Below are positions 128 through 34,642 of a stretch of DNA of 35,273 nt, in pieces. Origin of the DNA: a virus; IMG/VR virus record IMGVR_UViG_3300042561_001029, positions 1-35,273 of that record. One strand, written 5' to 3'. The translations under genes and the position numbers were made by a program. The notes below the pieces were generated by a model. That model was given only the letters and a program-made list of their open reading frames with translations, was not told the DNA's origin and did not search any database. The first letter of the stretch is position 1. Every line of letters starts with the position of its first letter.

Positions 128-486
128 TCATTTCCACGACATCGGCCGAAAACTGTTTGGCTTGCGACGAGGGGCCGTGCGACGATCCTGCCAACTGCGT
201 CACAGTCGATTGCTGCACGGAACCAGTACCAAAGACGTTGACTTTGACTCTTGTAGGCGGCACCCACGCAGGCACGTACACAATGACATGGGACGGCGTC
301 AGCGAATGGATCGCAGACCCAGCACCATTTACCGGCCGGTTATCATGCAACGATCCAACTTGGGAATTGGTGTTGGAACTTGAGACATACGGACACGACA
401 CTGCGAACTGTGACCCGTTCTCATTGACGTTTGACACCTCATTCCCGGTCTGGGACGTTGGTTCTGTTTCAGCGACCATATCATGA
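1..486 (+). CDS. cysteine-rich tail-region protein, C-terminal part (gene begins at 34643)
   Basis: This is the 3' part of a gene that starts at 34643 and crosses the artificial ends; joined across the 127-base overlap it encodes about 329 residues. The part here is in frame from base 1 and ends at TGA 484-486. It contains repeated cysteine pairs and single cysteines (for example LACDEGPC, VDCC) in a beta-rich, Thr/Asp-rich sequence, which looks like an extracellular or virion-surface protein stabilised by disulfides. I do not recognise a family. It follows the tape-measure and tail-tip genes and overlaps the next gene by ATGA, so a role at the tail tip is inferred from position only. Confidence 0.8.
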   Translation, partial: TASWDYECGATTDSGTIDLSGLCEDPVVEYDDTIDAGGCSVRIISTTSAENCLACDEGPCDDPANCVTVDCCTEPVPKTLTLTLVGGTHAGTYTMTWDGVSEWIADPAPFTGRLSCNDPTWELVLELETYGHDTANCDPFSLTFDTSFPVWDVGSVSATIS

Positions 487-737
487 GAACGCGAATCAAG
501 CGAATCAACGGCGTCGAAGTATCAAAACGCACTGTTGGCGTTCCAGTCCAAGTTTGCATCCACCGCGGCCCGCAGCTGCGGACGATCACCTCGGTCGTGT
601 GCAGTAAAAAGACAATCGACCTGCCAGTCTACTCCTGCGGGCTGTTCGGCGGTGAATGTGTCCACCGTAAAGTTTGCGAGCACCATGACCCGGCGATTCG
701 GGTTTGTGTTGGGTGTCTAAATCGGGCGGTCACTTAA
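483..737 (+). CDS. small cysteine-rich protein, end of tail operon
   Basis: This is an 84-residue protein. Its ATG overlaps the stop of the preceding cysteine-rich gene (ATGA at 483-486), which supports translational coupling. It has eight cysteines with a spacing that suggests knuckles or disulfides (VCIHR, VVCSKK, YSCGLFGGEC, KVCEHH, VCVGC) and several histidines, so metal binding is also possible. No family is recognised. It is the last rightward gene before the attachment-site region and the oppositely oriented integrase. It may be a structural partner of the preceding protein or a small zinc-binding virion accessory protein; neither role is shown by the sequence. Confidence 0.7.
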   Translation: MRTRIKRINGVEVSKRTVGVPVQVCIHRGPQLRTITSVVCSKKTIDLPVYSCGLFGGECVHRKVCEHHDPAIRVCVGCLNRAVT

Positions 738-783: not shown

Positions 784-840
784 CGGAAGGCACGGGAATC
801 GAACCCGCAACCCCTTGCGGGGCACTTCATTTCCAATCTA
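784..840 (-). other. attP: putative attP core: 3' half of a class II tRNA (serine-like)
   Basis: Read on the minus strand, this stretch has an anticodon-loop-like TTGGAAA (830-836, GGA anticodon in tRNA-Ser position), a variable arm CCCC-GCAA-GGGG, and a T arm GCGGG/TTCGATT/CCCGT (792-808). It ends with an acceptor strand GCCTTCC plus a G discriminator (784-791). No D arm or 5' acceptor strand is present, so it is not a full tRNA gene. Tyrosine integrases often use tRNA 3' ends, and the integrase gene ends 26 bp away. I infer that insertion here restores a host tRNA-Ser 3' end. The exact crossover limits cannot be seen without the host sequence. Confidence 0.75.
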
Positions 841-865
841 GTCCTAGGGTCTTTTGGCGACCGTC

Positions 866-1987
866 TCAGCGTTTTTTGCCCTGTTTTCCAGGGGTCGGCG
901 AGCTGGAAGACTCCGATTTGTGGCGCGGATCTGTCACTAAAGCTGTCACTGGTGCCCACACCGAGGCCGCGATCTGATCGATGTCGGCCTGCACGTAGTA
1001 CCGCAGGGTCGTCTCGATGCTGCTGTGTCGCATGATCGTCTTGAGCACGATCGGGTGGACCCGAAGTGACCATCGTTGGCCAAACGTGCGGCGCAGGTCG
1101 TGGGCCGAGGCGTGCTTGGTCGGGCTGACGCGGATTCCCGCAGCAACGCCGTAACCCGAGATCCGTTTGGCGACTGTGCTGGTCACCATACCCAGCGGGA
1201 ACACAAATTTTGTTGTTGGACCACAAATCTTTTTGCACAGCCGGTAGAAGTCCGGGCAGATCGGGACCGATTCAATCTTCTTATTTTTCTGGGTAGAAAA
1301 GCGAATCACCGGCGGCGAGGCTTGCAGATCCAGATGGACCGGCCCACCATCACAGCGCAGGGTCAGGGCCTCGGAGAGTCGCAGACCAGAGAGCCATAGG
1401 CCTTTGAGCAGATCAACCATCTTGGGCCGCAGCTCGGCCTGCGGCTCGGTGTCCACTGCGCGGAGCAACCTTGCCATTTCCCAAATCGTCAACGGTCGAC
1501 CACGGGACCGGGACGATTCTGGCATCACGACCTGGGGGACTGATTGGAGCATGCCCATCTTGGCCGCCCAGGATAGCGCAGAACGCACGCAGCGAAGATT
1601 CGAGGCAACAGAGGCGTCTCGCAGCCCGGACGCACGCAGCGACGCAGCCCAGCGGCTTAGCACGCTGCTGGTGATCTCGCGGATAGACTTCGGCGAACCG
1701 ATGTCCCGCTCAAATCGGCTCATCGCGTAGTCGAAGTTTTCGGCCGTGGATTCGCGTTTGGTCGCTAGGTGCTCGCGAGCGAACCGCTCCCGGAACTTGG
1801 TCCATGAAATTCCATCAACCGCGCCCTCGGCCATGAGCTGGGCCTCGAGCTTGACGGCGGCCCGTTCCGCTTCTCGTCGACTGGTCGTGTCCAAAAACTT
1901 CCGTCGCCTGCGACCGGACAGCGGTTCAGTCCAGGAAAGGACCAGGCCACGGCGCGAGGCGTCGGTCTGGATGTGAACGCGGATCAT
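866..1987 (-). CDS. int: tyrosine recombinase / phage integrase
   Basis: This is a 373-residue site-specific recombinase that would insert the phage genome into, and excise it from, the host chromosome. The N-terminal part has basic arm-binding and core-binding (SAM-like) regions. The C-terminal catalytic domain shows the arginine in SGLRLSEALTLR (near residue 200), HDLRRTF (near 296), the histidine in MRHSS (near 320) and the nucleophile region LRYY (near 329), so it looks intact. A longer frame opens at GTG 2041, but ATG 1987 is preferred because it overlaps the stop of a 46-residue upstream gene (ATGA). The Ser/Lys-rich tail after the tyrosine is unusually long (about 43 residues), and its coding DNA holds one of the CTGTCAC pairs. 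It lies next to the tRNA-derived attP and is transcribed against the tail genes. Confidence 0.95.
   Translation of the reverse strand: MIRVHIQTDASRRGLVLSWTEPLSGRRRRKFLDTTSRREAERAAVKLEAQLMAEGAVDGISWTKFRERFAREHLATKRESTAENFDYAMSRFERDIGSPKSIREITSSVLSRWAASLRASGLRDASVASNLRCVRSALSWAAKMGMLQSVPQVVMPESSRSRGRPLTIWEMARLLRAVDTEPQAELRPKMVDLLKGLWLSGLRLSEALTLRCDGGPVHLDLQASPPVIRFSTQKNKKIESVPICPDFYRLCKKICGPTTKFVFPLGMVTSTVAKRISGYGVAAGIRVSPTKHASAHDLRRTFGQRWSLRVHPIVLKTIMRHSSIETTLRYYVQADIDQIAASVWAPVTALVTDPRHKSESSSSPTPGKQGKKR
931..949. repeat. candidate integrase arm-type sites, right pair
   Basis: CTGTCAC at 931-937 and 943-949, separated by TAAAG, lies inside the 3' end of the integrase gene. It matches the pair at 748-765 on the far side of the tRNA-derived core. 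The match across a coding/non-coding boundary suggests a DNA-level role. Confidence 0.5.
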
Positions 1988-2124
1988 TGGGCCTTGCGTT
2001 CCTCGTACGATTCCTGCGCCCCGTCCGATGCGTCGAGCCACTCCTGAAACGTGGGCTCACGCACCGGCCGCGGCTCAGGCTCTCGGCATTCGGCCAGGAG
2101 GACAATCAGCCAAGCGATTCGCAT
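1984..2124 (-). CDS. 46-residue peptide coupled to integrase
   Basis: This short gene starts at ATG 2124 and ends at TGA 1984-1986, overlapping the integrase ATG by ATGA and overlapping the end of the upstream 153-residue gene. The peptide begins MRIAWLIVLLAEC, a short hydrophobic segment ending in a cysteine, followed by a charged, proline-rich tail ending EERKAQ. The start could resemble a lipoprotein signal, but the length is marginal. The double overlap is the main evidence that it is translated; it also decides the integrase start. No family is recognised. Confidence 0.5.
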   Translation of the reverse strand: MRIAWLIVLLAECREPEPRPVREPTFQEWLDASDGAQESYEERKAQ

Positions 2125-2567
2125 GTGATCACCTCTCCATCATCGGACAGCACCGCCAGGCGAAACTCGCCCATGTCGGTGGTTTGGTGTTTGTTCAAGT
2201 ACCGCACTAGTCGCTGGCGGTCTGGGATCGTCGGACCGTAGTTCGTTTTCAGCAACTCCTGCAAGTCGCAACCGTGGTAAATACCGATCCGCAGTGGCGT
2301 CTCGCGAAACCAGTCGGCCATCGACCGGTGGTACACGCTCCGCAACTGCCCCTGATCCAGATCACGGACTCGGAGTAAGTACCGCGAGCGACGCGTCATT
2401 GGCCGGCGCAGAAACTCGGCCACGGAAATTGGATCGCTGGCAAGATCCCTAATCTTCAAAATCTCGAATCGACGCGGTTCCCACCTTGGGAACTCCACTG
2501 AAACGTGGGTCGTGAACGGGTAGTAGGTGTCGAGAAAAGAGGGTAGGCAAAGATTGTTTGGCCGCAT
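2106..2567 (-). CDS. hypothetical protein in integrase operon
   Basis: This is a 153-residue protein whose start is preceded by GGAG about nine bases upstream on the minus strand. It is rich in Arg and aromatic residues (for example SRYLLRVRDLDQGQL, YHRSMADWF, YLNKHQTTDMG) and has no signal peptide or membrane segment. Its end overlaps the 46-residue gene that in turn overlaps the integrase, so the three are probably expressed together. I do not recognise a domain. By position it could be a recombination accessory or a superinfection or lysogeny function, but nothing in the sequence proves this. Confidence 0.65.
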   Translation of the reverse strand: MRPNNLCLPSFLDTYYPFTTHVSVEFPRWEPRRFEILKIRDLASDPISVAEFLRRPMTRRSRYLLRVRDLDQGQLRSVYHRSMADWFRETPLRIGIYHGCDLQELLKTNYGPTIPDRQRLVRYLNKHQTTDMGEFRLAVLSDDGEVITCESLG

Positions 2568-2649: not shown

Positions 2650-2853
2650 TCAATTTTCGTTTTTCCCTTTGGATAAAGCGCCAACGGCGAACAAAACTAT
2701 TCCAGTGAAGCATACAAAACCGCCAATAGTTTTCAGCGTCGACACGGTCGAATCATTAGCTACATCGATTGGTAAATTCAATTGCGTGACGACCAGCCCA
2801 ACTAAAGCCAGAAGCAAACCGAACACCACAAAAAGGGCAGATTTTACGGTCAT
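2650..2853 (-). CDS. small two-pass membrane protein
   Basis: This protein has 67 residues with two clear hydrophobic helices: one near the N terminus (ALFVVFGLLLALVGLVV) and one near the C terminus (IGGFVCFTGIVLFAVGAL). They are joined by a polar loop, and the protein ends with a lysine-rich tail. I chose ATG 2853 because it lies 19 bp after the preceding gene's stop and has AGGAG ten bases upstream; a frame extended to 2919 would overlap that gene. It is in the leftward (lysogeny-side) operon, where small membrane proteins often act in superinfection exclusion. That role is inferred. The region is visibly richer in A+T than the structural genes. Confidence 0.65.
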   Translation of the reverse strand: MTVKSALFVVFGLLLALVGLVVTQLNLPIDVANDSTVSTLKTIGGFVCFTGIVLFAVGALSKGKNEN

Positions 2854-2872
2854 GTCTCCGAAACTCCTAATT

Positions 2873-3262
2873 TCAGGATTTGCGTTTTTTTGTTTTCTTG
2901 CTGTATTTAGCGATTTCACGGTCTCCTTGATCTTCGCTTTTTGCTTGAGATTCTAGCAATCCGTGCAACGCGTCGTCAGTAATTCTCGGACGGCCGGCAA
3001 TTTTCTTGGACGCTAAAATTCCTCGCTCAATCGCTTGATTTTCCGAAAGATGACCATCGCGAATATTTCGGCGTATTCTTTGAAAGCACTTTCGATGCAC
3101 TCCGCGAAGATGATCTGCTCCGTCCAATGGCTTACCACAATTCAAGCAAATGCCCTTTGAAAGCAATTGTTTTGCTTCCTCTGGCATGTCCGATTCTCCA
3201 CTGTCGATTGCCGCCAAAACTTCCTGAAGGATTGCAATGGCCGCTTTTATTTGTTCTCGCAT
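2873..3262 (-). CDS. CxxC...HxxC zinc-finger-like protein, leftward member of a divergent paralogous pair
   Basis: It has up to 129 residues. The core has a CLNC knuckle followed by HRKC, then a basic helix-like stretch (FQRIRRNIRDG), then GILASKKIAGRPRI and a lysine-rich tail. The same order of motifs is found in the divergently transcribed protein at 3478-3741, so the two are paralogues. The start is uncertain. ATG 3262 gives an extra N-terminal helix but has no clear ribosome binding site, whereas ATG 3187 has GGAG seven bases upstream and gives about 104 residues, closer to the partner. It heads the leftward operon that leads to the integrase, the position of a lysogeny repressor. No classical helix-turn-helix repressor is seen nearby. 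DNA binding is inferred from basic residues and context. Confidence 0.7.
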   Translation of the reverse strand: MREQIKAAIAILQEVLAAIDSGESDMPEEAKQLLSKGICLNCGKPLDGADHLRGVHRKCFQRIRRNIRDGHLSENQAIERGILASKKIAGRPRITDDALHGLLESQAKSEDQGDREIAKYSKKTKKRKS

Positions 3263-3477
3263 ATACGCATTTTGAAAATATTTTCCACAAACGCAAGTCC
3301 TTAAATGCCAATACTTTACGAGTTTTTTAGCTGTTTCAAGCTATCAAAATCCGTATGATACCTATTTCCATACGTCGAATGAGCCGATAGAATACTTCAA
3401 GGGCAATGACACATGGATGGTTTCAGTTCTTTTGAACGTGAGGTTGTCCAGTGCATATTTTCATTAGAGGGAATGTC
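3263..3477. promoter_or_regulatory. divergent control region between the paralogous finger proteins
   Basis: This is an A+T-rich gene-free stretch with no long frame. Two inverted repeats stand out: TAGCT-N6-AGCTA at 3328-3343 and CGTATG-N11-CATACG at 3352-3374, with a further ATACG half site at 3263-3267 next to the leftward ATG. For the rightward gene a -35-like TTGAAC (3432-3437) and a -10-like CATATT or TATTTT (3454-3461) fit a promoter just before the ribosome site AGAGGG (3466-3471). The leftward promoter is not clear to me. By layout this is the operator region of the lysis/lysogeny switch. Confidence 0.5.
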
Positions 3478-3741
3478 ATGGCAAAGATTTCAGCAAAGGG
3501 ATTAAAGCGGCTGAAACACTGCGCGATTAATGGTCTTTGCACCGTATGTCTAGAAAAACTGTCGCCTGGAGATTTGGTGCGACGTGGTGCTCACTCATCC
3601 TGTTACCAAAGGGTTTTGAGGATGATTCGAACCGGAAATTATGACGCAAAAAAGGTCGTTGAAGATGGCGTGTTGCGTGAGCAAAACCAAGCGGGCCGAC
3701 CGGCCAAGATTGTCGCCGAACTGCCGGAGGCGATTAAATGA
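3478..3741 (+). CDS. CxxC...HxxC zinc-finger-like protein, rightward member of the pair
   Basis: This is an 87-residue basic protein starting at ATG 3478 with AGAGGG six bases upstream (a frame from GTG 3451 is less likely). It shows GLCTVC, then RRGAHSSC, a YQRVLRMIRTGN helix, GVLREQNQAGRP and a short C-terminal tail. This is the same architecture as the leftward protein that starts 216 bp away in the opposite direction. It is the first gene of the rightward early operon, the place that Cro holds in lambda. The next gene overlaps its stop by ATGA. The four Cys/His ligands suggest one bound zinc. A role as transcriptional regulator is inferred from the divergent arrangement and basic character, not from a known family. 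Confidence 0.7.
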   Translation: MAKISAKGLKRLKHCAINGLCTVCLEKLSPGDLVRRGAHSSCYQRVLRMIRTGNYDAKKVVEDGVLREQNQAGRPAKIVAELPEAIK

Positions 3742-3869
3742 ACCTCGACCTAATCTCAATCGTTCGCTTGACCGGCAACGACTTCATTGACGTTGCGATC
3801 CTGCAATTGGCGGCTGTCGCGATCGCTTTCGTTTACGCGGAGATTTTGACGCGGAGGGCACAGCGATGA
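3738..3869 (+). CDS. 43-residue single-pass membrane peptide
   Basis: This small gene overlaps its upstream neighbour by ATGA (3738-3741) and its downstream neighbour by ATGA (3866-3869). It codes for about 43 residues with a central hydrophobic helix (VAILQLAAVAIAFVYAEIL) and a basic tail TRRAQR, which predicts a single membrane span with the C terminus inside. It is too short for family recognition. The overlaps on both sides are the main support for translation. Confidence 0.55.
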   Translation: MNLDLISIVRLTGNDFIDVAILQLAAVAIAFVYAEILTRRAQR

Positions 3870-4114
3870 TTCAGGCGGACGCGATGTACACGACCGGCGA
3901 TTTGCGGCGAATCGGCTTGGGCACAACGATGCTTGGCCGGGCTCGCAGGGCTGGAGTCAGTGCCGTGCGAGTCGGCAAGTCTGATTGGTACTACGGGCGA
4001 GACCTGATCGCCTGGATGAAGGACATGGACCGCAGCGCAAGTGATTGCGAAGTGGCAGCGGTTGCCACGGCGGGAACGGATTCGGGGCATGATGCCCCAT
4101 TTTTCAAGGAGTGA
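3866..4114 (+). CDS. excisionase-like / MerR-type helix-turn-helix protein
   Basis: The protein has 82 residues. The N-terminal 55 residues read as a winged helix-turn-helix of the excisionase/MlrA type: YTTGDLRRIGLGTTMLGRA, then a turn with RVGKSDWYYGRDLIAWM, the usual recognition helix, wing and closing helix. The C-terminal third is low in structure. It is in the early rightward operon, opposite in direction to the integrase, so it could act as a recombination directionality factor (Xis) or as a small repressor. The family resemblance is good, but the specific role is inferred. CsrA follows with translational coupling. Confidence 0.65.
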   Translation: MIQADAMYTTGDLRRIGLGTTMLGRARRAGVSAVRVGKSDWYYGRDLIAWMKDMDRSASDCEVAAVATAGTDSGHDAPFFKE

Positions 4115-4119
4115 TGGAA

Positions 4120-4320
4120 GTGTTGATTCTGAAAAGGAATGTGGACGAGCGAGTGATTGTCGAGATTGGAGGACAGCAGGTCGAGGTGATGGTGACGGCA
4201 GTAGGTCATGGGGTCGTTAGCCTGGGGTTTGCCGCCCCGAAATCGGTCACGATCCACCGTGAGGAAGTGTATCGCGAGATACACGAGAAGAAACAAACGG
4301 ACGTTCCGTTTGAAGCCTAA
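4120..4320 (+). CDS. csrA: CsrA/RsmA-type RNA-binding translational regulator
   Basis: It has 66 residues from GTG 4120, giving the canonical N terminus MLILKR. AAGGAG lies eight bases upstream; the in-frame GTG 4111 and ATG 4114 are too close to it. The fold-defining segments are present: MLILKR with the RNA-contacting Leu4/Arg6, and GFAAPKSVTIHREEVY with the key arginine of HRE (Arg47, equivalent to Arg44 in E. coli). CsrA dimers bind GGA in RNA loops and block or activate translation and decay of target mRNAs. Six GGA triplets lie between 4108 and 4173, one of them in the ribosome site, so autoregulation is plausible. A CsrA in a phage early operon could redirect host translation or time phage genes. 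Confidence 0.92.
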   Translation: MLILKRNVDERVIVEIGGQQVEVMVTAVGHGVVSLGFAAPKSVTIHREEVYREIHEKKQTDVPFEA

Positions 4321-5890: not shown

Positions 5891-6171
5891 TGAATTCAGA
5901 GCGTGAGTTCGGGACGCTGATAGCGGACGAGTTCTACCGCGAAATGGAAGAAAAACGGATGCGAGTCTGTGGCCATTGGCTGTTTAGCGATGACTCACGT
6001 GCTGGGTTTGTCGTTCGGCTTGCTGAGCTACTTGGAGTCAAGACTGATGGAATGGTGGATACGCCTTCGGTGCCCCAAATGGATGGACGAACAGGCATCG
6101 TTTCGGTGCCTGAAAATCTTCCTCAAAGGGGCGCTGCGGAAGTGGGGTTTTCAATGCGAGGACATTCGTGA
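5890..6171 (+). CDS. hypothetical early protein
   Basis: It has 93 residues, starting with ATG at 5890 that overlaps the ATPase stop (TGATG). The N-terminal half is acidic and helical (FGTLIADEFYREMEEKR), followed by GHWLFSDDSRAGFVVRLAEL, and the C-terminal part is rich in Pro, Gly and Val. No family is recognised. The next gene's start overlaps its stop. An alternative frame opens at 5969 over much of this region, but this frame is preferred for its tight coupling on both sides. Confidence 0.6.
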   Translation: MNSEREFGTLIADEFYREMEEKRMRVCGHWLFSDDSRAGFVVRLAELLGVKTDGMVDTPSVPQMDGRTGIVSVPENLPQRGAAEVGFSMRGHS

Positions 6172-6548
6172 TGTTGCAACAAATGAGCTTGTTCGGCGAC
6201 CTGACCCAGCGGACGAATCAATACGGGCACCCGCTGGAGGATCAGCCGATCGCACGGGAGACGGACCCAAACCCAAGCCACGTCGCAGCCGCTCAGGTTC
6301 GGTGCGGGCTAAGCCAAATGCAGGCAACGTTCGTCGGGATCCTGCGGGCATCGACCAGCCCAATGACAGCGGCGGAAGTAGCAGCTGCGGCGTTCCCGGA
6401 TCTGGATGAGCCGTATGCGATGTGCAAGCGCGAGACGCTGCGCAAGCGAGCCAGTGAGCTGGTCAAGCGTGGGTGGATCAGGATCGTTGGTGAGCGGGTG
6501 TGTGCGGTGAACGGCAACCTAGCGAGTGTTTATGAGGTGGTGCAGTGA
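6171..6548 (+). CDS. predicted winged-helix early protein
   Basis: It has 125 residues, with ATG at 6171 overlapping the previous stop and GAGG about eight bases upstream. The N terminus carries QMSLFGDL and a polar linker. From about residue 45 it looks like a winged helix: QMQATFVGILRASTSPMTA, AAFPDLDEPYAMCKRETLRKR, then a wing with ELVKRGWIRIVGERVCAVNG. Similar small phage proteins with this arrangement usually bind DNA or regulate replication. The exact role is unknown. Confidence 0.6.
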   Translation: MLQQMSLFGDLTQRTNQYGHPLEDQPIARETDPNPSHVAAAQVRCGLSQMQATFVGILRASTSPMTAAEVAAAAFPDLDEPYAMCKRETLRKRASELVKRGWIRIVGERVCAVNGNLASVYEVVQ

Positions 6549-8022: not shown

Positions 8023-9423
8023 ATGGTCCATCTTCCACCAGATCCGCATATCTTAGCATCGTTCGCCAACGCTAATCTACCCTGGTGGAAGGCACTGGCC
8101 GAATTGGTCGATAACTCGCTTGATGCTGGCGCAACTAGGGTCGTCATTGATGTTACTGGTCGCGTCGTTACTGTCAGCGATGACGGTCTTGGGTGCGAGG
8201 ATATCACGGCTGTTTTCAAGCTCGGTGAGCACAAGCGGCGCAAGAGTTCCAAGCGAAGCCTGGGGAGGTATGGGATTGGAGCAAAAGACGCATGGCTATC
8301 GTGTGCCGATACGATGGAGGTTACGTCGTTTCGCGGCAACACCAAGACGACGATGCGGGTCAATTACACAGATTGGATGCAGAATAACTGGAATGTTTCT
8401 GACCCGATTGTGGAGCCTCATAGCGGGCCATCGGGCACCGTGATCAGGCTTCCACTGCGGCCTGGGAAGAAGTCGCCTGCGGAGGAAGCGTTTAGATCAA
8501 TTGCGTTTGCCTTTACGCCAGCGATCAGCAGCGGCATACAGATTGTGCGGCAATCAGGCACCATTAAAAAAACTCTGGTTCCCGTCACAATGCCATTAAG
8601 AAACGACGTTGTGCAGGCTGAGTTTGACATCGATGGAAAGTCGGTAGCAATCGACATCGGGATTTTGCCAGATGGCGTCTCACTTGAGCGCGGCCCATTC
8701 TGGTTGATCTATGGCCACAGAATTATCGACGTGAGTTCCATAGGGGCAGGCCAATACAGCGTGCGGCGGGTGGCTGGAACGATAACTATTGGTGATGGCT
8801 GGGGATTATCAAAAAACAAAGACGATTTGACAGACAACCTGGATCGCTTGGCAGATGCAATTTTTGTTCGGATCGAGCATGTCTTAAAAAAAGCAGATCA
8901 GTTGGCCGAAACAATTGAATCGGCAATGCTGAAAAATGAAATTCAAGACATGATCAACTCGGCAGCGGCAGACGCGAACGGAAAAACAAAGGCGAAGCGT
9001 GGTCCGGGATCAAGCAGCGGAACTGTCCAGCCGAAACTGACAGACAGAAATCATAAGGCATGCGCTACTCAACCCGGGGATGGGTCGATTGATGGGTCAA
9101 GTGCAGGCCAAGGCAGTGGCCGAAAAACTGGTTACACGATGGATTGGGCAAATCTAGATCCAGCGATTATTGGCAAGTTCGATCCTTCTGGGATGCGGGT
9201 TTATCTGAACCTGGATAATGGATTGATTGCATCTGCAAAAGATCAGTCTAACCGTGCTGCACTTGCGGCATGTGCAGTGGCTTTAATCGCTGACCATTGT
9301 TGCCGGCATGACGATAAAGGCCAGAAGTTTTTGAGGTTTTCATTTGATGATTTCCCTCAAGCGATGGGAACGTTGGTGAAGGATTACAAAGAGGAGAAGC
9401 AAAATGCTAAAGCAGCGGTTTGA
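8023..9423 (+). CDS. GHKL-type ATPase (Hsp90/MutL/MORC-like N-terminal domain)
   Basis: It has 466 residues, with ATG 8023 and GGG-rich ribosome site. The Bergerat ATP-binding fold is clear: N box ELVDNSLDAG (27-36), G1 box SDDGLG (52-57), and GRYGIGAKDA (81-90) with the lid glycine. After about residue 210 there is a transducer-like region, then a polar Gly/Ser/Lys-rich linker (about 310-365) and a C-terminal domain of about 95 residues ending in a basic tail. The architecture fits stand-alone GHKL ATPases such as MORC-like proteins; there is no histidine-kinase phosphoacceptor. It sits between an acetyltransferase and a ParB-like gene and overlaps the latter. A role in DNA loading, DNA compaction or anti-defence is inferred. 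Confidence 0.8.
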   Translation: MVHLPPDPHILASFANANLPWWKALAELVDNSLDAGATRVVIDVTGRVVTVSDDGLGCEDITAVFKLGEHKRRKSSKRSLGRYGIGAKDAWLSCADTMEVTSFRGNTKTTMRVNYTDWMQNNWNVSDPIVEPHSGPSGTVIRLPLRPGKKSPAEEAFRSIAFAFTPAISSGIQIVRQSGTIKKTLVPVTMPLRNDVVQAEFDIDGKSVAIDIGILPDGVSLERGPFWLIYGHRIIDVSSIGAGQYSVRRVAGTITIGDGWGLSKNKDDLTDNLDRLADAIFVRIEHVLKKADQLAETIESAMLKNEIQDMINSAAADANGKTKAKRGPGSSSGTVQPKLTDRNHKACATQPGDGSIDGSSAGQGSGRKTGYTMDWANLDPAIIGKFDPSGMRVYLNLDNGLIASAKDQSNRAALAACAVALIADHCCRHDDKGQKFLRFSFDDFPQAMGTLVKDYKEEKQNAKAAV

Positions 9424-14317: not shown

Positions 14318-14628
14318 GACTCACCATCAGCCAACACGCCTTGGATCGGTACCGAGAACGGTTCTCGCTGCGGAATGCGTCAGACGCGAGCCTGATCGAT
14401 CGGTTACGCTCGGCCTGGCGGCACGGTGACTCGATGCATCGCGACGGGCCAGCGGTTGTCCGAGAGTTCTTTGAGCACGGATCGATCGCGGAATGGAGAC
14501 ACTACCGGGGCGTGATCATGATCGTTAGCTTCGATGTCATGATCACCGTGGTGCGGTACAACAAAAACCACAAGCCGATGCTTCGCAGACGCGGCAAAAA
14601 CCAGCATCAAAAAAGGCGGCGAGCGTGA
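14314..14628 (+). CDS. hypothetical basic protein
   Basis: It has 104 residues, overlapping the initiator gene by ATGA. It begins RLTISQHALDRYRERF, a motif seen in many small phage and mobile-element proteins (ISxHAxxRxxER type), has a central beta segment RGVIMIVSFDVMITVVRY and ends in a strongly basic tail (MLRRRGKNQHQKRRRA). Nucleic-acid binding is likely from the tail. A relation to RelE/BrnT-like toxins is possible but not supported by clear catalytic residues. Confidence 0.55.
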   Translation: MRLTISQHALDRYRERFSLRNASDASLIDRLRSAWRHGDSMHRDGPAVVREFFEHGSIAEWRHYRGVIMIVSFDVMITVVRYNKNHKPMLRRRGKNQHQKRRRA

Positions 14629-14969
14629 ATGCGATACTCAAAGAACGGGTTCGGATCGCACTGGCACGGGTGGAGATCGCCCTCGGATACGACGTGAATG
14701 CTCATGACCTGAAGCACCAGCCGGAATACGATCGGGCTATTCGGATCATCGAATCGCTTCGCGAAGAATCCAGCGAGGAAGAAACACCGTTGGAGCTGCT
14801 TGATCTTCCGACCGCGATCTGCGGGTACTTGTACACAGCTGGGGTGATGTCCGTCGAGCAGCTCGTGATGATGACCGATTCGCAGTTGATGCAGATCGAT
14901 CAGATCCGAGCAGGTAGGCTTCGTGAGATCGATCACTATTTGCAGCGTGCTGGTTTACGTCGCGGCTGA
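14625..14969 (+). CDS. protein with RNA polymerase alpha-CTD-like helix-hairpin-helix domain
   Basis: It has 114 residues, starting at GTG 14625 (GTGA overlap). The C-terminal 60 residues read as an alpha-CTD/HhH fold: LDLPTAICGYLYTAGVMSVE, QLVMMTDSQLMQIDQIRAGR, then LREIDHYLQRAGLR. This is the same order as the host alpha subunit C-terminal domain that contacts UP elements and activators. The N-terminal half is helical and acidic. It is the last gene of the early operon, just before a promoter-like region and the late tail-tip block, so a role in late transcription is attractive. That role is inferred; HhH domains also occur in plain DNA-binding proteins. Confidence 0.6.
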   Translation: MNAILKERVRIALARVEIALGYDVNAHDLKHQPEYDRAIRIIESLREESSEEETPLELLDLPTAICGYLYTAGVMSVEQLVMMTDSQLMQIDQIRAGRLREIDHYLQRAGLRRG

Positions 14970-24806: not shown

Positions 24807-26374
24807 CTAAATACAAGACGCAATTCGCCCAGCGCAAGGCGGACATTAAAGCTGATTACGAAATGAGCCGCACTAGCCGGTTTGTTCGGCAGCGTCTCGG
24901 GACTGCCCCAATGGGCGGGTCGGCGGATTACCACTACCGCAGCGAATCCCAATACTACAACGACATGGAAAAGTGTCGCGACATGGACCGGAATGATTCC
25001 ATCGTCGGGCAAACCATTGATCGTTCAGTGGCAAATGTTGTTCAGGATGGGTTCACGCTTGAGCCAAAGACAGGCGATTCCAAACTGGACCTGGATCTGT
25101 GGCAGCGATGGCAAGACTGGGCTGGAAATCCCGACCAGTGTGATATTTCTGGCGAAATGTGTTGGCACGATTTTGAGTTGAAAGGGTATCGGTCGCACTT
25201 GATCGACGGAGACGCCACGATCACGCTGACCACCGAGGGGACGTTGCAATTTCTGGAAGCTCACACAATCCAGACAACGACTAGCATGGAGAACACGTTT
25301 TGCGGTGTGACGATGGACCAATACCGCAAGCGTTTGAAATTTTGGGTTATGCAAGACGGTCTGACTCCAAGTAAACAAAAGGAAAAAGCCAAGCCAATCG
25401 ACGTGCGCGACCCGAAGGGGCATCGCCAGATTTTCCAGATCTACAACCCTCGGCGAGCCAACCAAACCCGCGGAGTGTCAGCATTGGCACCGATTTTTTA
25501 CATCACTGGCATGCTCGAGGACATCAACTTCGCCAAGGTGGTGCAGCAGCAAATGGTCAGTTGCTTTGCGGTGTTTCGCCAGCGAGCGGCCTCGAACTCG
25601 ACTGACGGAACCCCGCCTTCGATGGCCGGTTATGGCGAATCTTCCACAGCGACCAGCGCGACCGGCCAAACGAAATACCTCGAGGGAATTGGACCTGGGA
25701 TGGAGATCATTGGGGCAGCTGGCGAGCAGCTGATGATGGACTCGCCAAAGGTTCCAAATGCTGAGTATTTTCAGCAAGTGCGAATGTTGCTGCAAATTAT
25801 CGGCGCGAACCTCGGTCTGCCATTGTGCTTGGTACTGATGGACGGCTCGGAGACCAATTTCAGCGGTTGGCGTGGTGCGGTGGACGAGGCCCGTAAGGGA
25901 TTCCGCGCTAACCAGGCAATGCTCAAGAAGCGGCAGCATCGGCCCATCTATGAGGGCAAGGTCCGCCAGTGGATCGAAAAAGACAGGGCGCTCAAAAGAA
26001 TTGCCGGCAAGCGAGGGATTAATATCCTCGGCCACGAATGGCACAGCCCTCAATGGAAGTACATCAACCCGCGTGAAGACTCGGAAGGCGATGCTGCTCG
26101 GATTCGCAATGGACAGACGAGTTATCGCCGACTTCACACCGACAACAGCACTGATTGGGAAACGATCGCCGAGGAACAGATCGCTGACACCGCATACGCG
26201 ATTGTTCGAGCCAAAGCCAAGGCCAAGGAGATCAACGATGAGTTCAACGACGGTGCCCCGGTCAATTGGCGCGATTTGATCAACCTAGTGACGCCGTCCG
26301 GTGTGACCATGAATTTGCAAGATCCTGAGGTGCTGAAAACGCAGCAGGAAACAGCCAAGGAGCCCATCCAATGA
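24803..26374 (+). CDS. portal protein (lambda-type)
   Basis: It has 523 residues from ATG 24803, which overlaps the previous stop. A frame from GTG 24794 is less likely. It has the features of lambda-like portals: early DRNDSIVGQTIDRSVANVVQ, the clip/stem region YNPRRANQTRGVSALAPIFY, LEDINFAKVVQQQMVSCFAV, and the conserved LMDGSETNFSGWRGAVDEAR, followed by EWHSPQWKYINPREDSEGDA. Twelve copies form the ring through which DNA enters and to which the tail is attached. The C-terminal 70 residues are helical and charged. The protease gene follows with ATGA overlap. Confidence 0.93.
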   Translation: MTKYKTQFAQRKADIKADYEMSRTSRFVRQRLGTAPMGGSADYHYRSESQYYNDMEKCRDMDRNDSIVGQTIDRSVANVVQDGFTLEPKTGDSKLDLDLWQRWQDWAGNPDQCDISGEMCWHDFELKGYRSHLIDGDATITLTTEGTLQFLEAHTIQTTTSMENTFCGVTMDQYRKRLKFWVMQDGLTPSKQKEKAKPIDVRDPKGHRQIFQIYNPRRANQTRGVSALAPIFYITGMLEDINFAKVVQQQMVSCFAVFRQRAASNSTDGTPPSMAGYGESSTATSATGQTKYLEGIGPGMEIIGAAGEQLMMDSPKVPNAEYFQQVRMLLQIIGANLGLPLCLVLMDGSETNFSGWRGAVDEARKGFRANQAMLKKRQHRPIYEGKVRQWIEKDRALKRIAGKRGINILGHEWHSPQWKYINPREDSEGDAARIRNGQTSYRRLHTDNSTDWETIAEEQIADTAYAIVRAKAKAKEINDEFNDGAPVNWRDLINLVTPSGVTMNLQDPEVLKTQQETAKEPIQ

Positions 26375-27414
26375 AACAGATCGTCATCGATGGGATCATC
26401 GGCAAGGGCGAAGGCGAATACCCGGCGTCGCAAATGCGTGCCGAACTTGAGGCGGCTGATGGCGGTCCCATCCACGTCACAATCCACTCGGAGGGCGGGA
26501 GTGTATACGAGGGTAATGCGATCCACGACATGCTGGTGAGCTACCCTGGCCGCAAGACGGCCACGATTCAATCGATGGCGTTTTCAATTGCTTCGTTTAT
26601 CGCCTTGGCGTTTGACGAGGTCGAAATCGCCCCCAACGGCTGGATGATGCTGCACAACCCTTACGTGATGGCTGAGGGGGATGGTAAGCATCTGGCAAAG
26701 GTGGCCAGCCAGATCGACGAGCTGCGAACCAAAATGGTTGACGGCTACGCCAAGCGAATGAAGGTAGATCCAGACCAGGTCGCGGCCATCATGGCAGATG
26801 AAACATTCCTGGACGCCGAAAAGGCTGTCAAACTTGGATTGGCGGATCGCGTGACCGCCAGCGGTTACACGTCATCACGCGAAGTTAAATCGTTGCACAA
26901 ACTTCCGCACGGCGTAGTGCAGGCGTTGTTTGGCAATTCACCTGACTTGAATAAGGAACCCCAAATGAGTCAGACAGTCACGCGAGTTGCCGCGACGGCC
27001 AAAGCCATCAAGGCAGCATTTCCCAAGGCCAAATCCGACTTCGTTGTGAAGTGCATGGAAAAGGAAATGACCATTGAGGAAGTGAAAGACGAGTACCTGG
27101 AGGAAACCGAAGAAGAAATGGCGACCCTCCGCGCTCAGCTTGAGGAAATGCAAGCCAAGCTCAAGGCGATGGAAGAAAAGGAAATGGCCAAAAAGGCCAA
27201 GGCCGCTGAGGACGACAAAAAGCCAGAGGCCAAAAGCGGTGTCCAGCCGGTGGCCCAGGTGACGACCGCGACCCGTGGCTCTGCCCGCGCTGCTTGGATG
27301 GGTGCCGTCCAGGCGAAGATGCAAAGCGGTCTGCCTCGCGAAAAGGCGATGGCTTCGGTCGACCGTGAAACGCCGGAACTGCGCCAGGCGTACCTGGACG
27401 AAATGAACAGCTAA
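26371..27414 (+). CDS. ClpP-like head maturation protease fused to scaffold
   Basis: It has 347 residues. The N-terminal 190 are a ClpP/S14-type serine protease: SMAFSIASFIALA with the nucleophile (S72), WMMLHNP with the histidine (H95), and MADETFLDAEKAVKLGL with the aspartate (D143). From about residue 215 the protein becomes a long charged coiled coil (EEMATLRAQLEEMQAKLKAM) and ends in a small helical domain, as expected for an assembly scaffold. An internal in-frame start at 26965 has its own good ribosome site. This matches lambda C with nested Nu3: the protease processes head proteins while the scaffold shapes the procapsid. Confidence 0.9.
   Translation: MKQIVIDGIIGKGEGEYPASQMRAELEAADGGPIHVTIHSEGGSVYEGNAIHDMLVSYPGRKTATIQSMAFSIASFIALAFDEVEIAPNGWMMLHNPYVMAEGDGKHLAKVASQIDELRTKMVDGYAKRMKVDPDQVAAIMADETFLDAEKAVKLGLADRVTASGYTSSREVKSLHKLPHGVVQALFGNSPDLNKEPQMSQTVTRVAATAKAIKAAFPKAKSDFVVKCMEKEMTIEEVKDEYLEETEEEMATLRAQLEEMQAKLKAMEEKEMAKKAKAAEDDKKPEAKSGVQPVAQVTTATRGSARAAWMGAVQAKMQSGLPREKAMASVDRETPELRQAYLDEMNS
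26965..27414 (+). CDS. nested in-frame scaffold protein (Nu3-like)
   Basis: This is an internal initiation inside the protease gene. ATG 26965 is preceded by TAAGGA at 26952-26957, seven bases away, a strong Shine-Dalgarno. The product would be 149 residues beginning MSQTVTRVAATAKAIKAAF, with the coiled coil and C-terminal domain of the parent and no protease. Lambda makes Nu3 from the C gene in the same way. Confidence 0.65.
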   Translation: MSQTVTRVAATAKAIKAAFPKAKSDFVVKCMEKEMTIEEVKDEYLEETEEEMATLRAQLEEMQAKLKAMEEKEMAKKAKAAEDDKKPEAKSGVQPVAQVTTATRGSARAAWMGAVQAKMQSGLPREKAMASVDRETPELRQAYLDEMNS

Positions 27415-27473
27415 GCGGCAGTCGCTTTGCTTTTTTGCTTTACCAAAGTTTTTGAAATTGGAGAACTCAAACA

Positions 27474-28160
27474 ATGAGTCAATATGTTGATGGAAATGAA
27501 AAGGCATTCACGGCGGACGAGGCAATTGCGTTGCATCTTCGCGTGAAGTTCGACTCGGATAGCCGAGTTACTCTTGCCGGTGCGACGGATGTCTCGATCG
27601 GGACGGCTGTCACTCCGGCATTCGCCGCCGCAGATGATATTACCGTTCGACTGCGAACCGCTGCGGGTACTCGCAAGATGGTTGCCAGTGAAGCGATCGC
27701 CGCAGGTGGTTTCGTTTACGCTGGGGCTTCTGGCAAGGTCGCTGCGGACGGTTCCGTTCTTGAAGGCGAAGCACTTGAAGCGGCATCCGCCGACGGCGAC
27801 GTAATCGAAGTTATGACGATTGGTTCTGCCAGCGTCATGGGCGGTTACATCGCAGCGGCACAGCAAGCCCTGAGCGGTGCTGGTGCGGTCAATGTGACCA
27901 CCTTCTACACCGCTTGGACAACGACCGGTGCAAATGCTGGAACGCTGGCCAACGGAACGTTCCCAGGCCAGTTGAAAAAGATCAAGCAGATCGTGGACGG
28001 CGGCGTAGGCACGTTGACACCAACCGCATTGACGGGCGGAACGACGATCGCTTTTGAAGATGCCGGCGACTACGCACTGCTGTTGTGGGACGGTGATAGC
28101 TGGGTTCCGATCGAACTTGGCAACGATGCGGACGGTGCGACCGCTCCCACTTTGGCTTAA
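27474..28160 (+). CDS. head decoration protein
   Basis: It has 228 residues, with ATG 27474 and GGAG upstream. It is rich in Ala, Gly, Thr and Val. The N-terminal half (KAFTADEAIALHLRVKF, ASEAIAAGGFVYAGASGKVA, EGEALEAASADGDVIEVM) is typical of capsid cement proteins of the DUF2190/lambda D-like kind. The C-terminal half (FPGQLKKIKQIVDGGVG) may be a second surface domain. It lies between the scaffold and the major capsid gene, as D does in lambda. Confidence 0.75.
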   Translation: MSQYVDGNEKAFTADEAIALHLRVKFDSDSRVTLAGATDVSIGTAVTPAFAAADDITVRLRTAAGTRKMVASEAIAAGGFVYAGASGKVAADGSVLEGEALEAASADGDVIEVMTIGSASVMGGYIAAAQQALSGAGAVNVTTFYTAWTTTGANAGTLANGTFPGQLKKIKQIVDGGVGTLTPTALTGGTTIAFEDAGDYALLLWDGDSWVPIELGNDADGATAPTLA

Positions 28161-28186
28161 CACACTTTTGAAACGGAGAACAGATC

Positions 28187-29173
28187 ATGGGACTTACCCA
28201 ATCAACAAGTGCGGCAACCGTCCGATCGGACTTGGCCGCTTTCATGGAATTCGATCTCGAGATGGAAAAGATCGGATACGTTGCCACGCAGGTATTGCCG
28301 GTGATCGAAACCGGACTGCAAGCCGACAACCCTGGCAAGGTGCCATTGGAGTCACTGCTGTTCCAAGCAGATTCCAAACGCAACAGCGGCGGACGGTACA
28401 ACCGGATCAGCGGCACGTTTGAGCGATGGACCTACGCAACCCAAGAAAACGGTATTGAAGAGCCGGTCGATGAACGCGACCTGCAACGTTACCGCGATCT
28501 GTTGTTGCTGGATCAAATCGCTTACGCTCGAGCTTTGGGCGTGGTGATGCGAAATCACGAGCAGCGAGTTGCTGCTGCTGTGTTCAACACCGGCACTTGG
28601 AATGGTGCGGCATTGACGACCGCAATCACCAATGAGTGGGACTCCAACCACAAGACGAACGCAGTTCCAATCGACGATGTCGAAGGTGCTGTTCGCAAGG
28701 TCTACGACGGATCTGGTTTGTGGTGCAACGCTTTGGTGATCAATCGCAAGGTTTTCAGAAATCTTCGCAACCTCGACCAAATCGTTGATCGGATCACGGC
28801 GTCCGGTGCCGGGAGTCCAGCAAAACCGTCAGACATCACTCCAGCGATGTTGGCGGCGGTGTTTGACTTGGACTACGTCATCGTGGCCGGTTCGTCAAAA
28901 AACAACGCAATCGAAGGACAAGCGGCTTCTCCGACTCAAATTTGGTCGGATGAGTACGCAATGGTTTGCCGCGTGGCTACCACCGCCGACATGCGAGAAC
29001 CTTGCATCGGCCGGACCTTCCACTGGGCCGCTGATGGGTCGAGCATTGGCGGAACAGTCGAGGAATACTTCGAAGAGCAATCGCGCTCTCGGATCATTCG
29101 CGTTCGCCATGATACGGACGAGGTGATCATGTACCCGCAAGCTGGTCACTTGTTGTCCAACGTCACAACCTAG
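28187..29173 (+). CDS. major capsid protein (HK97 fold, lambda E-like)
   Basis: It has 328 residues, with ATG 28187 and CGGAG upstream. It has the look of lambda-E/P2-like capsid proteins: an early helix SDLAAFMEFDLEMEKIGYVA, the loop RNSGGRYNRISGTFERWTYA, spine helices LLLLDQIAYARALGVVMRNH, and the C-terminal AMVCRVATTADMREPCIGRT with RIIRVRHDTDEVIM. It will form the icosahedral shell. Single gene, no frameshift, and spaced from its neighbours by short gaps with own ribosome sites, consistent with high expression. Confidence 0.88.
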   Translation: MGLTQSTSAATVRSDLAAFMEFDLEMEKIGYVATQVLPVIETGLQADNPGKVPLESLLFQADSKRNSGGRYNRISGTFERWTYATQENGIEEPVDERDLQRYRDLLLLDQIAYARALGVVMRNHEQRVAAAVFNTGTWNGAALTTAITNEWDSNHKTNAVPIDDVEGAVRKVYDGSGLWCNALVINRKVFRNLRNLDQIVDRITASGAGSPAKPSDITPAMLAAVFDLDYVIVAGSSKNNAIEGQAASPTQIWSDEYAMVCRVATTADMREPCIGRTFHWAADGSSIGGTVEEYFEEQSRSRIIRVRHDTDEVIMYPQAGHLLSNVTT

Positions 29174-29182
29174 TGGTGACCA

Positions 29183-29539
29183 ATGACGCTGTCACGCCAT
29201 GATCGCCGTTTTGCCACCAATGCGTTCGTTCAATTGCTTTTGCAGTTTGGCGAACCGTTGGCGTACCAATCCAGGCCTGGTCAAGAGCGTGACATCGTCG
29301 GAATCGTAGATCGGGAACCGCCTGTCGTCTATGACGGCGGCGGCAACCCGATTTATGGCGACTACGTGATCCGTGTCCACAACTCGTCAACTCGCGGAAT
29401 CCTGGACACTGAAGTCGACTACGGAAATCACTGCGTTAGCATCCGGTCGCGCCAGAGCGATGGTTCCTGTGTCGTTCTAAAAACAATCATCAGCAAAGAG
29501 TCGGAAGACAGTGGCGTACTGGTACTGAGGTTGCGATGA
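29183..29539 (+). CDS. head-tail connector / head completion protein
   Basis: It has 118 residues, beta-rich: FVQLLLQFGEPLAYQ, VDREPPVVYDGGGNP, YGDYVIRVHNSSTRGI. Position between the capsid and tail-terminator genes is that of small stopper or adaptor proteins that close the portal after packaging. No firm family match is claimed. The next gene overlaps its stop (ATGA). Confidence 0.6.
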   Translation: MTLSRHDRRFATNAFVQLLLQFGEPLAYQSRPGQERDIVGIVDREPPVVYDGGGNPIYGDYVIRVHNSSTRGILDTEVDYGNHCVSIRSRQSDGSCVVLKTIISKESEDSGVLVLRLR

Positions 29540-30024
29540 GCGAAATCATAGCCGAACAGATCGTCACCAAGGTGAAAGATCGCCTCGCAGAAATCAACGT
29601 GGCGGATGGCTACCAATTCACAACCCCCGAGGTCGTCCGTCCTTTGCGTTTCGTCAACAATCGATTTCAGAACTTGCAAATCCTAGTAACTATCTCGGAG
29701 ATCGCAACCAATCAGTCGTTGAGCCATCCCGGCAACCCACCGGCGATTGCCAAGGACATGACGGTTATGTGCTCCTGCTATGGCATGGTATCGAAAACAG
29801 ATAAAAACCCGGCGGACTACTGGCGGAACCGGATCTTTGGGGCAATGTCGAAGGCGATCACAACCGGGGTGGCTTGGTGGCAATGGGGCGGTCTAGCGAT
29901 CAACACGATGGTCGGCAACCCGATTTATCGAGCCGAAGACGGTGGGGCCAACGTCGGCGTGCAGCTGCCGGTGATTATCACGTTTCGCACCGATGAAGAC
30001 GACCCTTTTCAGGTGAGGGCGTGA
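29536..30024 (+). CDS. tail-head joining / tail terminator-like protein
   Basis: It has 162 residues with an alpha/beta arrangement: IAEQIVTKVKDRLAEINVAD, FQNLQILVTISEIATNQ, and a late beta strand VGVQLPVIITFRTDED. This arrangement, and position after the connector and before a Z-like gene, resemble tail terminator proteins (lambda U family), which cap the tail tube. The role is inferred from order and fold style. Confidence 0.6.
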   Translation: MSEIIAEQIVTKVKDRLAEINVADGYQFTTPEVVRPLRFVNNRFQNLQILVTISEIATNQSLSHPGNPPAIAKDMTVMCSCYGMVSKTDKNPADYWRNRIFGAMSKAITTGVAWWQWGGLAINTMVGNPIYRAEDGGANVGVQLPVIITFRTDEDDPFQVRA

Positions 30025-30025
30025 C

Positions 30026-30643
30026 ATGGAGCTGAAAGTCGAATATCGCGGGATTGACGCTGTCCGGGCGCAGCTATTGGACCTTAGCAACAATATGCCG
30101 AAAGAGATTGCGATTGCGGGGACCGAGACGGCTAAGAAGGCCAGAAAGATGATTGCCAGAAAATTGGCAACGGTCATCCGTCAGCCGATCAAAAACTTGC
30201 TGAAGGCCACCTACTACAAATCACGTAGCGATGGAGTATTGATTCGGATTCGCAGTTTCGAGATAGCCTTGCGGCGATTTAAGCCAACCCAAAACAAGCA
30301 AGGCGTAACTGTAGCAACCAGGCTTGGGGCTTTTAATGTATCGACGCTCAAGAAGCAACCCATAAAAGACAATCATCCCGGGGCGTTCATGGGGCCAAAC
30401 CCCAAAAAGCGAAATCCAAAATTACGAGGCAATCCAGTCAAACGAGTCGGTCGGTCCAGGCTTCCGATTAAGGCACTTCCTGCGGTGTCGGTTGTGGCTA
30501 CGACTGACCAGTCTGGTTTGACTCAGATTTTGGCGGAAGAAATCAAGGTAGAGTACGGAAAACAAATTCTAGAGCGGGTGCGGATGTTGACGCTCAAGAA
30601 GCAAAAGAAACTAACCTGGCAAGTCGCCGGCAAGAGTGCATAG
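30026..30643 (+). CDS. minor tail protein Z-like (tail completion)
   Basis: It has 205 residues and is strongly basic. The N terminus is VEYRGIDAVRAQLLDLSNN, followed by a long helix with ETAKKARKMIARKLATVI. Then there are beta segments, LGAFNVSTLKKQ, a HPGAFMGPNPKKR-type loop and GRSRLPIKALPAVSV. This pattern is that of the lambda Z/GPZ tail completion family, needed for correct joining of tail to head. It lies before the tail tube gene as expected. Confidence 0.75.
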   Translation: MELKVEYRGIDAVRAQLLDLSNNMPKEIAIAGTETAKKARKMIARKLATVIRQPIKNLLKATYYKSRSDGVLIRIRSFEIALRRFKPTQNKQGVTVATRLGAFNVSTLKKQPIKDNHPGAFMGPNPKKRNPKLRGNPVKRVGRSRLPIKALPAVSVVATTDQSGLTQILAEEIKVEYGKQILERVRMLTLKKQKKLTWQVAGKSA

Positions 30644-30654
30644 AGGAACCTAAC

Positions 30655-31578
30655 ATGACGCTACCACGACGATTCACTGTTTTAGCCGCGAAGGTTGAGG
30701 CAACCCCTGGTACGGCGGAAGCGCTGACGGCCAGCGAAGCGGCGTACAATATTTTCGACGCTCAAATCACTCCCAACATCCCAATGAGCGAGCGACCGCA
30801 ACAGGGCAGCTATCGACACAACGCGGCGGTGGCTGGCCCTCGGTCAGCGACTTGCACATTTCGGATCGAGTTGACCGGCAACGGTTCTGGCGGTGTCCCG
30901 ACCTGGGCGACCGTTTTCTTGGCAGCGTGTGGTGTTGTGAATTCCGGTGGCGTTTTGACTCCGCGAAACGAGGTGGTTGGCGCGAACGTCAAAACAATAA
31001 CGATCGGCGTCTATGAAGCTGGTCGTCGATCTCGGATGTCTGGCGCGATGGGAAACGCGGTTTTCGAATTTGTGTCTGGGCAGTTGATCGGGATCGATTT
31101 TACTTTCACCGGCAAATGGGAAGGCGAAGACGACCAGACGCTAATTGTCCCGACTTACCCAACTCGCCTGCCGCTGCGAGCTGCCGCCACGACATTCACG
31201 ATCGGCAGCGTGACTCCGTGCTTTGAGACCATGACATTCGACCTTGGGAATGAAGTTTATCTTCGCCCATGTTCGACGACGGATAGCGGTTTCGCGGCGG
31301 CCGTCATCACCAGCCGTCGGCCAGTGTTTTCATTGGATCCAGAGGCCAAGTTGGTCGCCACAGATGATCGCTATGGTCGCTGGTTGGCCTCTACGACACA
31401 AGCGTTTTCGTATGCGGTTGAAGACGCCGACGATTCGATCACATTCGCCGCGCCAGCAGTCCAGATCATGAACGTCACGCCAGGGGAACGGGGCAATCTG
31501 ATCACCGACAATACCGAATTGTTGTGTGTTGCAAGTGGGACGGATCCAGAATTTTCAATCACATTTGCTGCAGCATAG
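30655..31578 (+). CDS. major tail tube protein
   Basis: It has 307 residues from ATG 30655. Almost entirely beta (TCTFRIELTGNGSGG, VKTITIGVYEAGRRS, GNAVFEFVSGQLIGIDFTF, TGKWEGEDDQTL), with KVEATPGTAEALTASEA near the start, a common opening of tail tube proteins in siphoviruses of environmental bacteria. Size and position directly before the overlapping tail chaperone frames fit the protein that polymerises into the tail tube. Confidence 0.78.
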   Translation: MTLPRRFTVLAAKVEATPGTAEALTASEAAYNIFDAQITPNIPMSERPQQGSYRHNAAVAGPRSATCTFRIELTGNGSGGVPTWATVFLAACGVVNSGGVLTPRNEVVGANVKTITIGVYEAGRRSRMSGAMGNAVFEFVSGQLIGIDFTFTGKWEGEDDQTLIVPTYPTRLPLRAAATTFTIGSVTPCFETMTFDLGNEVYLRPCSTTDSGFAAAVITSRRPVFSLDPEAKLVATDDRYGRWLASTTQAFSYAVEDADDSITFAAPAVQIMNVTPGERGNLITDNTELLCVASGTDPEFSITFAAA

Positions 31579-31586
31579 GAACAAAA

Positions 31587-31913
31587 ATGCCAAACTTCGA
31601 GCCAGGTAAAACCATCTGGGTTGTTCTTCGCAATGACCGCAACAAGCCGGACCCCCCTAAGTTCAAGACTCGCTCATTGTCGCTACGCGAGCAGATCGAA
31701 CTCACGGAGCGGGTCGATGCAATGGAAAAGCTACCACTTGGACAGTTCATGGAAGCGCTACAAACTGTCGCCGGAGAATATGTCACCGATTGGTCAGGCT
31801 TGAGTCGGCCATTCCAGCCAGGTGATTTTGCTGATGTTTTGAACTTGGCAGATATGCAGAACTTGATCAACTCGGTCATCGGCCAAGTGGAGTACGAAGA
31901 AAAAAAAGCCTAA
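31587..31913 (+). CDS. tail assembly chaperone, short form (G-like)
   Basis: It has 108 residues from ATG 31587 with AGGA upstream. The protein is mainly helical after a short beta start (FKTRSLSLREQIELTERVDAM, FMEALQTVAGEYVTDWSG, ADVLNLADMQNLINSVIGQV) and ends EEKKA. It is placed between the tail tube and tape measure genes, where lambda G lies. The 3' end has a run of eight A directly before the stop, followed by a hairpin, which allows a -1 frameshift into the next frame to make a longer G-T form. Confidence 0.82.
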   Translation: MPNFEPGKTIWVVLRNDRNKPDPPKFKTRSLSLREQIELTERVDAMEKLPLGQFMEALQTVAGEYVTDWSGLSRPFQPGDFADVLNLADMQNLINSVIGQVEYEEKKA

Positions 31914-31943
31914 GGCTGGCGGCGATGCTCCGATGCGGCCAGC
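31901..31943 (+). promoter_or_regulatory. programmed -1 ribosomal frameshift signal
   Basis: The heptamer A-AAA-AAA (31901-31907) is in the correct phase of the chaperone frame (GAA AAA AAA GCC). Seven bases downstream starts a stem GCTGGC (31915-31920) pairing perfectly with GCCAGC (31938-31943). The -1 frame is open from before the slip site to 32254. This is the textbook arrangement of slippery site, spacer and structure. Confidence 0.8.
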
Positions 31944-34258: not shown

Positions 34259-34265
34259 GGATGAA

Positions 34266-34640: not shown

Positions 34641-34642
34641 CA

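Follow-up and report, generated by a model that had tools for sequence, protein, structure and literature searches.

A divergent pair of paralogous CxxC proteins as a candidate lysis/lysogeny switch in a circularly closing virus genome

Two small paralogous proteins, here termed P1 and P2, are encoded back to back across 215 bp of AT-rich DNA in the virus record IMGVR_UViG_3300042561_001029, of which the whole stretch of 35,273 nucleotides (hereafter, the window) was analysed (Table 1). We think it somewhat probable that P1, the intergenic DNA, and P2 together form the lysis/lysogeny switch (immunity region) of this phage, with P1 being CI-like and P2 Cro-like, and this reading is the best among those considered. 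Position, paralogy, exchange as a block between sister phages, and absence together with the integrase in a distant relative all fit an immunity region. A fuller version, put forward more tentatively, is that the switch consists of two paralogous zinc-knuckle DNA-binding proteins of an unnamed family, which would act on common operators, would acquire new specificities in evolution as a matched set (ligand order included), and would confer differing immunity types on sister phages without a helix-turn-helix (HTH) repressor. If so, the CI/Cro logic would have arisen independently on another protein fold, and temperate phages of this kind would escape repressor searches that rely on HTH profiles.

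Table 1. Positions and proposed roles of features in and around the P1/P2 region (window coordinates)
Feature	Position	Strand	Description
Tyrosine integrase	866-2041	-	Last gene of leftward operon; Phage_integrase, E 7e-11; 94% identical in sister
ORF153	2106-2567	-	153 aa, no assigned function; between P1 and integrase; kept in sister
67-aa hydrophobic ORF	2650-2853	-	Behind P1; two likely membrane helices (judged by eye); missing from sister cassette
Exchanged cassette	2665-3736		Two-transmembrane ORF, P1, intergenic DNA, and P2; L020 counterpart 203-1068 carries another pair
P1	2873-3262	-	129 aa, CxxC-HxxC protein; heads leftward (integrase) operon; proposed CI-like lysogeny regulator
Intergenic control region	3263-3477		215 bp, 37% G+C (window mean 54.6%); divergent starts; proposed operator/promoter DNA
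CAAAAT-N6-ATG	3263-3274	-	Directly before P1 start; candidate -10 element, read from sequence
TCAAAATCCGTAT	3344-3356	+	Candidate operator half-site; inverted partner (12/13) of 3263-3275 at P1 start
CGTATG-N11-CATACG	3352-3374		Candidate operator palindrome; overlaps proposed P2 -35; P 0.67 alone, chance level
TTTCCA-17-TAGAAT	3365-3393	+	Sigma-70-like site, 9/12 consensus match only; proposed P2 promoter
P2	3478-3741	+	87 aa, P1 paralogue; heads rightward early operon; proposed Cro-like regulator

As an earlier note on this DNA had proposed, the two genes diverge from one control region and each heads an operon. P1 is the first of a co-directional series on the minus strand that ends with the tyrosine integrase, and P2 opens the early series on the plus strand, in which a CsrA homologue (4111-4320; Pfam E 1.5e-13) and an ATPase whose long middle part is coiled-coil-like follow. 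The start of P2 is an ATG preceded by AGAGGG, and its stop codon overlaps the start of the next gene (ATGA). An alternative start of P1 is Met26, located after a GGAG-like sequence, which would give a protein of 104 aa. The product of 3866-4114 had been called excisionase-like; this label is unproven, because no Pfam or PHROGs model, and no NCBIfam model above its cut-off, matches the protein.

Paralogy of the pair, also claimed in the earlier note, was confirmed by several measures. In BLASTP, 22 of 57 residues in the core are identical (39%; 45 bits; E 2e-12), and the local alignment score of 110 compares with 50 for the best shuffle (z 17.4). A search of the record with P2 recovered P1 (E 1.8e-10) and no third copy. 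The two proteins have in common the motif CxxC-x13/14-HxxC-[FY]QR...AGRP; the pattern CxxC-x13-H-x2-C-[FY]-Q-R occurs at a single site in the window, which is P1, and its x14 form at a single site, which is P2, with zero sites for either form in 100 dinucleotide shuffles. Judged by their sequences, P1 and P2 are true paralogues. The common order of motifs described earlier is therefore present within the pair; its AGRP segment (AGRPRI and AGRPAK in P1 and P2, in which GRP is a possible AT-hook core) does not extend beyond it, being absent from the pair of the sister phage.

The sister contig, L020 (IMGVR_UViG_3300046007_007960), was found with the integrase's catalytic end as query. It is 92% identical to the window over 1-1985, 81% over 2082-2664, 91% over 3737-3938, and 99% over 25950-30024, and shows no similarity to the window between 2664 and 3737. 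In place of this segment (45% G+C, vs 55%), L020 carries a replacement pair, also divergent, consisting of P1' (L020:740-1081, 113 aa) and P2' (L020:198-512, 104 aa), both with CxxC...RGLCxxH[FY]. On the right, homology breaks at the final bases of P2, and on the left at the P1' stop codon; since the breaks coincide with gene ends, the exchange respects gene boundaries. ORF153, being kept in the sister, lies outside it. Within pairs, the proteins are much alike (shuffle z 17.4 for P1-P2 and 18.2 for P1'-P2'; BLASTP 45 and 47 bits), whereas between the phages the z values are 5.9 (P1-P1') and 1.9 (P2-P2') at the same position (BLASTP 17 and 14 bits), and 9.4 (P1-P2') and 1.6 (P2-P1') at crossed positions. 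The ligand order is likewise pair-specific, with HxxC in both P1 and P2 and CxxH in both P1' and P2'. Comparison of the profiles of the two pairs gave E 0.0015 and placed the zinc ligands in register (RG[VA]H/RGLC), and all four proteins therefore probably belong to one family; a MAFFT alignment pairs the histidines of HxxC and CxxH instead, which is probably wrong. As read from the alignment with this one sister phage, both genes and the intergenic DNA have been swapped as one block, a pattern that immunity regions (CI-operators-Cro) show, and the likeness within pairs, together with the ligand order, is expected if the members of a pair read the same DNA or fit each other. Divergent pairs beside integrases, the conservation of which the earlier note had regarded as supportive, were thus found in one further phage, L020, and only in that one. 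Because the sisters differ in the cassette on a nearly identical background, specificity and immunity should be directly testable by comparing the pairs and their intergenic DNA.

The place of P1 and P2 is not alone in being exchanged, since the tail-region genes at 30025-34792 are also strongly unlike those of the sister, and this is counted against the switch reading; the tail segment, which adjoins the 99% identical 25950-30024, may represent a host-range exchange. L020 also has an extra membrane and zinc-ribbon-like ORF (L020 1792-2146) just ahead of its integrase, where the window instead has its two-helix membrane ORF behind P1. Beside the integrase of the window, a sequence resembling a tRNA 3' end, TTCGATTCCCG...GCCTTCCGC (788-845, minus strand), is kept in the sister and is a likely attP core; ARAGORN and Rfam made no tRNA call on it.

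Comparison with L020 also defined the form of the genome. Bases 1-127 of the record are an exact direct repeat of 35147-35273, a length that is a common assembly k-mer. The 127-bp repeat is single-copy in L020 (4006-4132), where it joins both ends of the window, and the window therefore closes as a circle of ~35.1 kb. The record thus represents a virus genome that closes into a circle and is not itself an integrated prophage, and the prophage setting assumed in the earlier note was not borne out.

A more distant relative, the incomplete 21-kb contig L007, shares with the window the ATPase (52% identity), YqaJ (67%), and several homologous tail genes. Between its homologue of the gene at 34266-34640 and the ATPase, the integrase, P1, and P2 are all absent; given that the contig is incomplete, its integrase could sit elsewhere. 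Based on this joint absence, P2, although lytic in direction, appears to be tied to the lysogeny module and to be no core early gene. A CxxC stretch in an L007 ORF (7509-7928) was rejected as a relative of P1 and P2, as the real gene probably starts at ~7700 and encodes an HTH_17 protein; this excisionase-like HTH_17 protein (L007 7701-7928) lies ahead of the ATPase. Homology of window 483-737 with a cysteine-rich ORF of L007 was suspected and then dropped.

Searches of Pfam, PHROGs, and NCBIfam assigned neither P1 nor P2 to any family, including the HTH families, and only coiled-coil matches below the cut-off were obtained with P1. Direct searches for relatives in IMG/VR, GTDB, and phage and plasmid collections found none. 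The motif pattern, searched over viral contigs, occurred in ten stretches, every one of which was judged to be chance, and a match of P2 to phrog_7109 (E 0.037) was discarded, as this profile gave a signal in neither phage record, yet did so in 9 of 14 unrelated control genomes. No HTH repressor was recognised among the tested proteins of the early region, in line with the earlier note; a repressor too divergent for Pfam may hide as a winged helix, for example at 6168-6548. P1 has no peptidase S24 match in Pfam and, at 129 aa, no self-cleaving C-terminal domain; sensor and cleavage domains are lacking in both proteins, which is counted against the switch reading.

Structure prediction, suggested earlier as a check, gave a zinc-knuckle/helix core in both proteins and no significant fold match. 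In the AlphaFold2 models (computed from four sequences), P1 and P2 consist of a helix, a CxxC hairpin, a helix beginning at HxxC, and a short further helix, with moderate confidence in the core (pLDDT of about 75-80 for P1 and about 80-86 for P2); the P1 model is extended at both termini by helices without a counterpart in P2. Fold searches with the models recognised no DNA-binding domain, another point against the switch reading, and weak likeness was seen to the zinc domains of Slx4, RING, and HNH proteins. By the topology of the models, the core may be described as treble-clef-like. Four zinc ligands follow in order, CxxC and HxxC in P1 and P2, and CxxC and CxxH in the sister proteins. We propose that P1 and P2 bind zinc and also DNA.

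In the intergenic region, the sigma-70-like site listed in Table 1 is the best promoter-like site on the plus strand and ends 84 bases upstream of the P2 start. L020 has TTGATC-16-TATCAT ~95 bases upstream of P2', so that the promoter-like geometry is alike in the two phages. A Shine-Dalgarno sequence is present for P2 and P2', and none for P1 and P1' as annotated. Directly before P1', TAAAAT-N6-ATG takes the place of the CAAAAT-N6-ATG of P1, and both elements, as read from the sequence, would suit possible leaderless messages of P1 and P1'. Leaderless messages have been reported for the cro region of PY54 (PMC4488713). As for operators, TCAAAATCC is found in the sister at the same relative place as the candidate half-site of the window (shared 9-mer, P 0.01), and the most notable repeat is the 12/13 inverted pair (at n>=9/10, 4 observed against 0.7 expected; P about 0.03, one among many tests). 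The remaining repeats are at or near chance, and 3263-3477 contains no statistically convincing operator array, which also speaks against the switch reading. The similarity between the intergenic DNA of the window and that of L020 is faint, with 5 of 300 shuffles scoring equally high.

In the proposed mechanism, P1 would keep the rightward early promoter off, favouring lysogeny, and P2, as the first rightward product, would turn the leftward promoter down as lytic growth begins. Both proteins would bind sites within 3263-3477 through a zinc-knuckle/helix domain of common ancestry, and the pair and its sites would for this reason be exchanged together. That the operators are shared, and which promoter each protein represses, is what we infer here. 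The switch claimed in the earlier note is accordingly supported in part: its layout, its paralogy, and the absence of any recognised HTH repressor among the proteins tested were confirmed, and block exchange between flanks 81-92% identical adds support of an independent kind, but a convincing operator set was not found.

Other explanations were weighed against the same evidence. It is rather unlikely, but conceivable, that a mosaic hot spot next to the integrase encodes P1 and P2 as variable accessory proteins (acting in superinfection exclusion, anti-defence, or take-over of the host) and that the true repressor is another, unrecognised gene. The cassette is AT-rich and hypervariable and contains a membrane ORF, like many cargo loci, and a repressor could hide among the other genes of the phage without assignment; cargo, however, need not be paralogous, divergent, and swapped along with both promoters, and it would be unusual for cargo to head the early operon with a stop codon overlapping the next start, as P2 does. 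Also, PADLOC gave no match, and ORF153, likewise uncharacterised and part of the leftward operon, stays out of the exchange.

That only one of the two proteins is the repressor, while the other acts as antirepressor or modulator by pairing with it via the shared zinc domain and does not bind operators, appears decidedly unlikely. Paralogy would suit hetero-oligomerisation as well, the extra terminal helices are confined to P1, and a shared operator set is not evident, but the exchange of the intergenic DNA fits contact with DNA by at least one partner. Highly improbable is a set of roles outside lysis/lysogeny control, in which P1 and P2 would be RNA-binding antiterminators, recombination accessory factors, or degenerate zinc domains of HNH endonucleases. 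Apart from the weak fold similarities described above, the sister proteins match the HNH family phrog_5351 (E 0.13-0.21, covering the zinc knuckle only), and one of them matches the DksA-like fingers (phrog_54); these families have, like P1 and P2, a CxxC knuckle followed by a helix with a second ligand pair. All of these HNH and DksA matches are non-significant (E 0.05-0.2), and direct reading of P1, P2, and the sister pair found no catalytic HNH motif; moreover, such roles do not predict a concerted swap with the intergenic DNA.

The switch reading can be set beside known systems. Small zinc-finger transcription regulators of temperate phages are represented by Ogr/Delta of P2/P4, which are late-gene activators. 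P1 and P2 likewise appear to be small zinc-finger-type proteins of a temperate-looking phage, but Ogr/Delta have the spacing CX2CX22CX4C and are encoded by single genes, whereas the divergent paralogues P1 and P2 have CX2CX13HX2C and CX2CX14HX2C, respectively. As in a lambda-type region, two divergent genes for proposed regulators lie where the lysogeny and early operons meet, with putative promoters between them, the block is exchanged among sister phages, and a leaderless message is possible; unlike lambda CI and Cro, P1 and P2 are small zinc-knuckle paralogues without HTH, and the region has neither a clear operator triplet nor a cleavable C-terminal domain. The cI-OR-cro immunity region is also found in N15, PY54, and phiKO2 (PMC4488713). 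Gifsy-1 prophages, otherwise alike, differ extensively in the immunity region (PMC3121763), as do the present phages in the P1/P2 region; the Gifsy repressors, in contrast, belong to another protein family and are subject to LexA-controlled antirepressors encoded outside the region (PMC3121763).

Elsewhere in the window, the RNA polymerase alpha C-terminal domain is weakly matched by 14625-14969 (E 7e-4, which misses the cut-off), and the GHKL ATPase encoded at 8023-9423 (HATPase_c_3, E 1e-18) bears a weak resemblance to MutL and the anti-phage ATPase MzaB.
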